NCBI RefSeq assembly: GCF_003318235.1
Contig: NZ_QOCG01000030.1
Coordinates: 537,389-601,388, forward strand
Length of the DNA: 64,000 nucleotides
Direction of reading: 5' to 3'
Source: Loktanella sp. D2R18
GTDB taxonomy: Bacteria; Pseudomonadota; Alphaproteobacteria; Rhodobacterales; Rhodobacteraceae
Positions 11,520 to 54,446 of this stretch are shown here, one piece after another (the first letter of the stretch is position 1; the number at the start of each line of letters is the position of its first letter). Made by a program: the position numbers and the translations under genes. The notes beneath the pieces were generated by a model. It did not search any database. It was not told where the DNA came from and was given only the letters and a program-made list of their open reading frames with translations.

Positions 11520-11547
11520 CCTCCCGCGCAGTATTACGCGCGGGAGG
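11520..11547 (-). terminator. Ten-base-pair hairpin downstream of the ctpA-like gene
   Basis: CCTCCCGCGC (11520-11529) pairs perfectly with GCGCGGGAGG (11538-11547), with an eight-base loop. It begins 8 nt past the ctpA-like stop. The T-run (11551-11556) is on the plus strand side, where no plus-strand gene ends, so for the minus strand it is a U-less hairpin probably acting as a 3' end or stabiliser. Confidence 0.55.
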
Positions 11548-49152: not shown

Positions 49153-49839
49153 ATGGGACAACTCAAGAAAATATTGCTGGTCGACGACGATGACGATCTG
49201 CGCGAAGCATTGGGTGAGCAGTTGCTCATGACCGAAGATTTCGACGTATTCGAGGCCGACGACGGCGCCAGCGCAATGGTGAAAGCCAAAGAAGGGCTGT
49301 ACGATCTGATGATCCTTGATGTCGGCCTGTCCGATACGGATGGTCGCGAATTGTGCCGCGTGATGCGCAAACAAGGCGTGAAATGCCCGATTTTGATGTT
49401 AACCGCGCAAGACAGTGACGCAGACACAATTCTGGGTCTTGATGCCGGCGCGAATGATTATGTCAGCAAACCGTTCAAGTTTCCGGTGCTTCTGGCGCGT
49501 ATCCGCAGCCAGCTGCGCGCGCATGAACAGTCTGAAGATGCCGTGTTCCAGCTGGGGCACTATACTTTCAAACCAGCCCAAAAAATGCTGGTAACAGAAG
49601 ACGATAAGAAGGTTCGACTGACGGAGAAAGAGACGAATATTCTTAAATTCCTGTACCGTTCCACCGACGGCGTTGTGGCCCGCGATGTGCTGCTGCACGA
49701 GGTTTGGGGCTATAATGCGGGTGTGACCACGCACACATTAGAGACACATATTTACCGTCTTCGCCAAAAAATAGAACCAGATCCGTCAAATGCACGCCTT
49801 CTTGTGACCGAATCTGGTGGTTATAGATTAGTTGCGTAA
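49153..49839 (+). CDS. OmpR-family response regulator
   Basis: A 228-residue two-component regulator. The receiver domain (1-120) has the acidic pocket DDDDD (11-15), phospho-acceptor Asp56 in MILDVG, Thr84 in MLTAQD and Lys106 in VSKPFKF. The winged-helix output (about 130-228) shows VRLTEKETNILKFLYRS, HEVWGYNAGVTTHTLETHIYRLRQKIEP in pieces and the terminal GGYRLVA. GGAG lies 8 nt before the ATG. No histidine kinase adjoins it, so it is an orphan in this window; CenR-like envelope regulators are one possible group. A palindrome lies at its promoter, and a candidate small RNA occupies its 3' untranslated region. Confidence 0.92.
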   Translation: MGQLKKILLVDDDDDLREALGEQLLMTEDFDVFEADDGASAMVKAKEGLYDLMILDVGLSDTDGRELCRVMRKQGVKCPILMLTAQDSDADTILGLDAGANDYVSKPFKFPVLLARIRSQLRAHEQSEDAVFQLGHYTFKPAQKMLVTEDDKKVRLTEKETNILKFLYRSTDGVVARDVLLHEVWGYNAGVTTHTLETHIYRLRQKIEPDPSNARLLVTESGGYRLVA

Positions 49840-49964
49840 GACCAAGCCCCGGTCGCATGACTCCTCCCCCTGCATGTGACCGGGCCAAAGAATACCGCCG
49901 GTGATCGGTTCATATCACCACCTCCCTGTTGGACTTGCCCGGGCTTTATGCCCGGGTTTTTTTT
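49840..49964 (+). ncRNA. Candidate small RNA / 3'UTR RNA with anti-Shine-Dalgarno loops
   Basis: Directly after the response-regulator stop lies a structured stretch ending in a strong terminator. Hairpin 1: 49848-49859 pairs with 49873-49884 (12 bp, one G-U), exposing a 13-base loop with CTCCTCCCC (49861-49869), complementary to Shine-Dalgarno sequences. Hairpin 2: GGTGAT (49900-49905) with ATCACC (49914-49919), followed by single-stranded CACCTCCC. The terminator hairpin ends the element. Loops with CCUCC-type motifs are known from Hfq-dependent alphaproteobacterial sRNAs such as the Rhodobacter CcsR RNAs and the rhizobial alpha-r14 family. No separate promoter is obvious, so it may be processed from the mRNA. 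Confidence 0.6.
49938..49964 (+). terminator. Strong intrinsic terminator after the response regulator/sRNA
   Basis: CCCGGGC (49938-49944), loop TTTAT, GCCCGGG (49950-49956), then eight T residues. This is the best intrinsic terminator in the window. Confidence 0.93.
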
Positions 49965-50018
49965 AGGCGATCGCGAACAAATTGCGCACTGAAGCACGAT
50001 TGGCATTCCCCTATGAGA

Positions 50019-53412: not shown

Positions 53413-54291
53413 CTAGCTTCCCGCAAACTGATCGCGCGCATAGCCTTGCAGGTATAGAAGCGCGGTCAGGTCGCCGTGATTGACCCGCACGTCACACTCT
53501 TTCTGCACCGCTGGTTTGGCGTGAAGCGCAACGCCAGTGCCGGCGCGGCCTAACATGCCTAGGTCATTGGCGCCATCGCCCACGGCCAGCACATCATCTT
53601 CTAAGATGCCCAATTTGACTGTGATTTCTTCAAGTGCGGTGACCTTGGCCGCCTTCCCCAAAATTGGCAGCCCGGGCGCACCCGTCATTTGACCATCCGC
53701 AACCAACAGCGTGTTCGCCCGGTTTTCATCAAACCCCAATTCAGCTGCGATTCGCGCGGTAAAGGCCGTGAACCCGCCCGATACCAACGCGGCGTACGCA
53801 CCATTCGCCTTCATAGTGCTCAGAAGCGCCCGGCCGCCCGGCATCAATGTAATACGTTCTTCAAGGACTTTATCAATCACGGATTCAGATAGGCCCGTTA
53901 GCAAGCCAACGCGTTCGGTGAGGGCCTCATTAAAGTCCAATTCACCGTTCATGGCGCGCGCAGTGATGTCCGCCACGCGCGGGCCAACGCCAGCCTCTGC
54001 GGCCAATTCATCGATGCATTCTTGTTCGATCATGGTGCTATCCATGTCGGCCAACAGCATCTTTTTTCGCCTATTTTCAGTAGGTTGAACGATCAAGTCG
54101 ACACCTGCGACTTGCAGATCATTCCAGACGTCCCACTGATTATCGGGCCGTTGCGGGATCGCAAATTCCGCGGCTTCATCGATCGCCAGCCAGACCGCAT
54201 CACCGCCACCCCACGCATTGCGCAGGTTCTCGACCAGCGCCAATTCAAGGTTGCGTTTTTCAGGGTTCGTCAAAAGCGTGACTGTGAACAT
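53413..54291 (-). CDS. serB: Phosphoserine phosphatase
   Basis: A 292-residue HAD phosphatase that performs the last step of serine synthesis. The nucleophile motif is ADMDSTMIEQECIDELA (Asp82, Asp84), with SGGFTAF (motif II), and the metal motif VGDGANDLGML. An N-terminal 75-residue region resembles an ACT-like domain. The ATG at 54291 gives the family start MFTVTLLTNPE; in-frame codons to 54375 are not needed. It is divergent from serC-serA, so all three serine genes are clustered here. Confidence 0.96.
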   Translation of the reverse strand: MFTVTLLTNPEKRNLELALVENLRNAWGGGDAVWLAIDEAAEFAIPQRPDNQWDVWNDLQVAGVDLIVQPTENRRKKMLLADMDSTMIEQECIDELAAEAGVGPRVADITARAMNGELDFNEALTERVGLLTGLSESVIDKVLEERITLMPGGRALLSTMKANGAYAALVSGGFTAFTARIAAELGFDENRANTLLVADGQMTGAPGLPILGKAAKVTALEEITVKLGILEDDVLAVGDGANDLGMLGRAGTGVALHAKPAVQKECDVRVNHGDLTALLYLQGYARDQFAGS

Positions 54292-54362
54292 GATGTTTCC
54301 TATCCGCGTCAAAGGGTGTCGCAAAAAGCGGCTTAAGCGGCGGTCTAGCGTCATTTTGGCTG

Positions 54363-54391
54363 TTGTGAAAGCCAAAGTCAGGCTCTATGTC
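54363..54391 (+). promoter_or_regulatory. Possible serC promoter
   Basis: TTGTGA (54363-54368), 17 bp, TATGTC (54386-54391). Transcription from here would begin inside the leader motif at about 54398. The match is moderate. Confidence 0.35.
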
Positions 54392-54446
54392 CGGCGGTGG
54401 GACACCCTTCCCCAACGAAGGGCAGATATCTGTGAGGATACCAGCA
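54389..54446 (+). promoter_or_regulatory. serC leader RNA motif (candidate)
   Basis: The short serC leader holds GTCC/GGAC (54389-92 with 54400-03) and CCCTTC/GAAGGG (54405-10 with 54417-22, loop CCCAAC), followed by the Shine-Dalgarno GAGGA and the start. A conserved structured element called the serC motif is known upstream of serC-serA in alphaproteobacteria, and this position and small-hairpin design match. Identity with that motif is recalled, not searched. Confidence 0.55.

Follow-up and report, generated by a model that had tools for sequence, protein, structure and literature searches.

The sRNA SorX was reportedly first described by Peng et al. in 2016. In Rhodobacter sphaeroides it is described as being released from an mRNA by RNase E and as depending on Hfq (PMC6238624, PMC9438474). 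The precursor, pre-SorX, is given as 116 nt long with a start at genome position 2,598,182, from which RNase E yields the 75-nt SorX that begins at 2,598,224 (PMC6238624). As one function of the Hfq-dependent sRNA, a lowered spermidine uptake via potA is reported (PMC9438474). Anti-Shine-Dalgarno (anti-SD) motifs are a feature of the alpha-r14 sRNAs. For alpha-r14/NfeR1, silencing of the targets is attributed to redundant anti-SD loops that sit on variable stems (PMC10746234), and the three CCUCCUCCC motifs are described as acting redundantly at the ribosome binding site of the mRNAs that they silence (PMC7143759, PMC10746234). CcsR is described as a 3'UTR-derived sRNA of Alphaproteobacteria (PMC8625941), and the CcsR RNAs as being transcribed together with a small DUF1127 gene (PMC10253847).

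Here, the region downstream of a gene for an OmpR-type response regulator is compared with these systems. The term "window" denotes the whole stretch of DNA that was analyzed, with a length of 64,000 nt.

Results

The Host Gene and the Known sRNA SorX

The host gene of the 3'UTR (49153..49839, plus strand, like all elements of the 3'UTR described below) encodes an OmpR-type response regulator of 228 aa, and its stop codon TAA lies at 49837-49839. The Pfam domains Response_reg and Trans_reg_C were found in the protein, which bears out the link to such a regulator in the original prediction. Downstream of the stop codon follow, in this order, a 12-bp hairpin (hairpin 1) with CUCCUCCCC in its 13-nt loop, a second hairpin (hairpin 2) together with ACCUCCCUGUUGGAC, and an intrinsic terminator. 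The predicted fold of 49837-49966 had a z of -4.48, and 0/200 dinucleotide shuffles were as good. The regulator was found in all 56 same-genus genomes that were searched, own genome counted. The nearest named relative found was Yoonia maritima, with a regulator identity of 97%, and the label "Yoonia-like" for the genus rests on that value.

The 3' part of the region, 49892..49963, matched the Rfam model of SorX (RF02784) over its full length (1-73 of 73) with 70.3 bits and an E of 3.6e-15, the gathering score being 46.6. The match lies directly downstream of the regulator gene. In locus L014 of the genome G051, taken to be R. sphaeroides 2.4.1, the gene that precedes SorX encodes a protein with 86% identity to the regulator, and by this similarity the regulator gene is the orthologue of RSP_0847, which stands upstream of SorX in that species. 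Because of the position after the orthologous regulator and the model match, the 3' part of the region is assigned to SorX, i.e., to an already known stress-related sRNA made from the end of a regulator mRNA. Thus, the view that the locus is not a described member had to be given up, and a novel sRNA family was rejected due to the SorX match, while the proposal of a 3'UTR-derived sRNA is likely right. The match in L014, G051:C4:2598225-2598299, coincides with the 5' end that is given for the R. sphaeroides RNA (2,598,224).

Across the family, SorX was matched at E up to 0.001 in 141 of the 149 genomes and over the cut-off in 117 of the 149. Only one of the 14 control genomes, that of Caulobacter vibrioides, had a match, and it was below the cut-off. 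Of the 87 family loci from which a SorX site was extracted, 84 have a regulator orthologue within the fetched flank.

The first hairpin of SorX, i.e., hairpin 2, comprises GGUGAU and AUCACC with the loop CGGUUCAU (49900..49919; Rfam consensus structure and alignment row L114). It is followed by the conserved core ACCUCCCUGUUGGAC (49920..49934; alignment A1), which contains the second anti-SD motif and is the presumed seed. As had been predicted, the motif directly follows the second hairpin, with ACCTCCC at 49920-49926, and it turned out to be the SorX core. CCTCCCTGTTG was invariant in 89/89 rows of alignment A1, which had been gathered with a looser pattern for the SorX core. The intrinsic terminator (49937..49964; terminator scan and sequence) has an 8-bp stem at 49937-49957 including one G-T pair, directly followed by seven more T, so that the T run has eight T in all (49957-49964). 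It had been called the best intrinsic terminator of the window. Of the sites listed in scans of the whole window, it was indeed the only one whose stem is immediately followed by seven T. Other sites have longer stems, e.g., at 11520 and 21856, and thus "best" is a matter of judgement.

Several additional observations were made. Tandem SorX copies occur in two other genera of the family (L178 with two sites, and G148:C3:795407-795620). The own genome contains two more SorX-like RNAs, L002:1501-1584 (57.9 bits) and L003:1501-1557 (29.3 bits), which share the core CCUCCCUGUU, and of which L002 alone is over the cut-off. In five genomes of the same genus (L150, L153, L159, L163, and L169) there is no SorX core within 260 nt after the regulator, and their best SorX matches, with 41.6-52.0 bits, are on other contigs. 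Duplexes of the SorX seed with potA-like starts of the own genome (11 mechanically chosen starts at six fetched potA-like loci, neighbouring ORFs included) had energies from -6.6 to -14.3 kcal/mol; these values overlap with those of the background (mean -10.0, sd 3.4, n=51), without a clear gain over it. Elsewhere in the window, a known cis-regulatory element, the Rfam serC leader (RF00517), was found with 68.1 bits at 54395-54446 (+), and a HAD-family hydrolase is encoded on the opposite strand to it (53413-54375).

An Additional Hairpin Upstream of SorX

Hairpin 1 (49848..49884), the 5' hairpin of the 3'UTR and of the putative SorX precursor, falls outside the SorX model and is separated from SorX by a stretch that is mostly unpaired in the predicted fold. 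The evidence for it comes from the fold z, covariation, and a covariance model. Its 13-nt loop is ACUCCUCCCCCUG. Positions 49848-49859 pair with 49873-49884 in 12 pairs, one of them G-U, around the 13 nt of ACTCCTCCCCCTG; the predicted 12-bp hairpin with a motif-bearing loop of 13 bases just 3' of the stop codon was therefore confirmed in position and pairing. The fold of 49840-49890 had -22.3 kcal/mol and a z of -4.27, and 1/200 dinucleotide shuffles was at least as good. The loop carries the anti-SD motif CUCCUCCC at 49861..49868, identified by its sequence and by CCUCCC in the apical regions of relatives. Hence both anti-SD motifs that had been proposed were found, one in loop 1 and the other as the SorX core after hairpin 2.

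The 3'UTRs after the regulator were surveyed in 56 same-genus genomes with a loose rule, i.e., UCCC at the right distance, and by this rule the hairpin 1 module was present in 38 of them. L165 is one more carrier beyond the 38 and was missed by the SorX pattern. The 17 genomes without the hairpin fall into five without UCCC, seven with a 3'UTR that is too short, and five without a SorX core at this place; their regulators are 93-95% identical, a range in which other genomes have the module. In L137, which is among the 38, hairpin 1 is present and the SorX core is broken. The original prediction had named loss of the loop or of the stem pairing in close relatives as the outcome that would speak against it. 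This was not observed: with regulators at least 96% identical, UCCC was found at the place of hairpin 1 in 27/27 genomes by the loose rule, own genome counted, one of them (L134) folding weakly. A different motif, UACUCC, opens about one third of the 56 3'UTRs near the stop codon as judged by eye (L117-L146 and L154); it is a possible further CUCC motif, and the window is without it.

In the alignment of the 38 same-genus sequences, 89.8% of the cells of the hairpin 1 stem were paired, compared to 73.1% after shuffling (0/500). The number of double-changed cells was 97 versus 30.9 (0/500), and the covariation score was 0.612 versus 0.299 (0/500), whereby the shuffles ignore kinship and the cells are not independent events. 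Eleven pairs had changed on both sides versus 8.9 after shuffling, a value matched by 38/500 shuffles. When the 3' partner was slid by 1-3 columns, the pairing was at most 51.3%. The stems can be wholly different between lineages, e.g., CCCGGTGAT, ATTGGCGGT, GCAGGCAC, and TCCGACGGC, and the compensating stem changes that had been expected in relatives were thus found. The fold z was -2 or lower in 34 of the 37 evaluated sequences, L121 having been left out of the 38; L134 (z -0.4), L141 (-0.2), and L168 (-0.6) folded no better than shuffled sequences.

The 38 rows and their apical regions had been picked by UCCC, and therefore the invariance of UCCC is built in. CCUCCC was found in 28 of 37 distinct apical regions. 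The longest match between apical region and SorX seed had a mean of 6.59 nt, compared to 4.94 nt when UCCC was kept and the remaining apical bases were shuffled (0/500; 37 distinct regions). On this comparison, the similarity of the apical region to the SorX seed extends past the selected UCCC. Outside UCCC the motif drifts in relatives, e.g., to UUCCCUC or UUCCCGA.

The distribution of hairpin 1 was analyzed with a strict scan for a stem around YTCCC near SorX sites and with R1, a covariance model of the hairpin. The strict scan was positive for 30 of the 49 SorX sites within the genus, for one of 87 sites in other genera (L220), and for four of 62 named regulator loci (L034, L035, L037, and L040), on a background of 3/980 mononucleotide shuffles. 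With R1, the window site (E 9.5e-8) was the sole match listed in the own genome at E up to 1, where 150 of 410 first-look candidates were scored, and thus no further copies were listed. Among the 90 family loci (default filters), R1 had no match at E < 0.1 and two weak ones (E 0.17 and 0.41). Three of 80 named regulator loci had E < 0.01 (L034, L035, and L036), and weak matches of 0.43 and 0.89 were also seen. R1 found none of 18 same-genus loci outside the model (a 19th source was that of the window itself), including L165, which was counted as a hairpin carrier, and it also missed L037, which was positive in the strict scan. Hairpin 1 is absent from most other genera examined, and the upstream part of SorX in the R. 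sphaeroides sequence has no anti-SD loop. Hairpin 1 is therefore, at the level of sequence comparison, a well-supported, nearly genus-restricted addition to the SorX region.

A Probable Pseudoknot in SorX

The leader before the first SorX hairpin can pair in or next to the loop of that hairpin. In the window, the leader strand ACCG (49894..49897) would pair with the loop strand CGGU (49906..49909). The pairing was analyzed in 88 family sequences, which derive from 90 loci, one per genus, after L211, L215, and L229 had been dropped because they have no core or terminator, and with L178 entered twice for its two SorX copies. Four of four pairs, G-U counted, could be formed in 88/88 sequences. 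In 82/88 the pairs were all Watson-Crick, compared to 50.5 (sd 3.8) with swapped leaders and loops (0/10000); since the best register is chosen by the script, the observed count has to be judged against the swapped value. The gap between leader and stem is 1-2 nt in 71/88 sequences, a distance that suits an H-type pseudoknot.

Rare double changes also fit the pseudoknot, i.e., ACCG/CGGU, which the window shares with L172 from another genus, CUUG/CAAG in L227, and CCCU/AGGG in L212. A point against it is that four of the 49 rows from the same genus combine ACCG with CGGG and give three pairs only. A free-energy permutation was significant for the family (4/5000 with 88 rows, 3/5000 with 83 unique rows) and not significant within the genus (289/5000 with 49 rows, 1223/5000 with 35 unique rows). 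A test that takes kinship into account had one usable independent pair with a tree from 156 nt of the gene. With the whole-gene tree there were eight; on average, 1.9 of these had a loop change in the same direction, 0.0 had one in the other direction, and 6.1 had an unchanged loop. From the pairing pattern it is probable that the SorX leader and the loop of its first hairpin form an H-type pseudoknot. The RNase E end given for R. sphaeroides lies about 2-3 nt before the leader strand. In the collection of papers that was searched, none mentions SorX together with a pseudoknot.

Discussion

Since anti-SD loops on variable stems silence the targets of the alpha-r14 sRNAs, a precursor with two seeds is inferred here, and by this analogy hairpin 1 is likely a second seed. 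SorX would arise from the 3'UTR of the OmpR-type regulator mRNA. As in R. sphaeroides, the expressed transcript would first be shortened to a precursor, and a further cut, made by RNase E near 49892, would release a SorX of about 72-75 nt that presumably uses Hfq. Target mRNAs would be blocked at their ribosome binding sites by the ACCUCCCUGUUGG stretch of SorX. On this model, the 3'UTR of this genus has gained the covarying hairpin in its upstream part, and the hairpin loop would show a second anti-SD seed, so that the uncut precursor would have two seeds, compared to the three redundant ones of the alpha-r14 sRNAs, and RNase E cleavage would leave one. We favour, with moderate confidence, this reading of a SorX from the regulator 3'UTR with a lineage-specific second anti-SD seed in the precursor that RNase E would remove.

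A purely structural hairpin 1, which would protect the 3' part of the mRNA or direct the first precursor cut, its pyrimidine loop being incidental or kept unpaired, is unlikely, yet has several points in its favour. Of all features, the paired stem has the strongest support. In pre-SorX of R. sphaeroides, a small hairpin (GCGGG-CUCG-CCCGC) is likewise seen by eye in the 5' part, and its loop is not of the anti-SD type; in L161 and L148, the hairpins at this place lack UCCC. However, the apical match to the SorX seed exceeds that of all 500 shuffles with UCCC kept, while the stems change. That hairpin 1 would become a separate stable sRNA after the RNase E cut, independent of SorX, is improbable. 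The hairpin is complete, has an anti-SD loop of its own, and is set apart from SorX by a mostly unpaired stretch, and its design is like that of one hairpin of the alpha-r14 sRNAs as described, but the scan shows no terminator of its own, the window site is the sole R1 match listed in the own genome, and the forms named for R. sphaeroides are those of 116 and 75 nt only (PMC6238624). Very improbable is an action of loop 1 in cis on the Shine-Dalgarno site of the regulator itself: the AAGGAG site can pair with CUCCU of the loop, but the duplex energy of -8.7 kcal/mol differs little from the background in the window (mean -7.8, sd 3.6, n=51), and any AGGAG site would do.

If the second seed in the precursor is real, it would show a way in which the precursor of a known stress sRNA from a 3'UTR can acquire another targeting module, and RNA processing could then change the target range of SorX. 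The pseudoknot beside the RNase E end would provide a concrete structural model for an sRNA family found in 141/149 family genomes. A combination of both elements is proposed tentatively, and we consider it possible rather than probable: SorX would be pseudoknotted, with its mature 5' end locked and the CCUCCCUGUUGG seed free, the Yoonia-like precursor would have two seeds, and RNase E would switch a broad two-seed repressor to a one-seed SorX.

Among the known systems, the CcsR1-4 or cuckoo RNAs carry CCUCC-type loop motifs, and they are like the locus in being alphaproteobacterial and, as far as described, 3'UTR-derived. A CcsR/CIN1 locus requires an upstream DUF1127 gene, and the upstream gene of the window encodes Response_reg and Trans_reg_C; this assignment was rejected. 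SorY (RF02651) has the core ACCUCCCUGUUGGACUU in common with the window, and membership was rejected with 32.1 bits versus the 111 required; the score for anti-hemB was also below the cut-off. The alpha-r14/NfeR1 sRNAs (RF02344) are described with a highly variable stem and an unpaired CCUCCUCCC-like anti-SD motif, as is seen in hairpin 1. In contrast to their three such hairpins, the window has one, upstream of SorX: among its three hairpins, hairpin 1 alone carries the motif in the loop, the other copy sits in the linker that follows hairpin 2, and the terminator is without it. The suggested resemblance to alpha-r14 thus holds for the look of the first hairpin, but not for membership, as the model score was 19.7 bits versus 58.8 required. 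The closest system is SorX (RF02784) in the 3'UTR of RSP_0847 (ompR-1) of R. sphaeroides, with which the locus shares the sequence and structure family over 49892-49963, the orthologous host gene, and the place after the stop codon. It differs from it in the upstream part, which in the window has a covarying hairpin with an anti-SD loop. Hence SorX is what was already known at this locus, and new is the extra conserved hairpin 1 with a second copy of the sequence that likely blocks ribosome binding sites.
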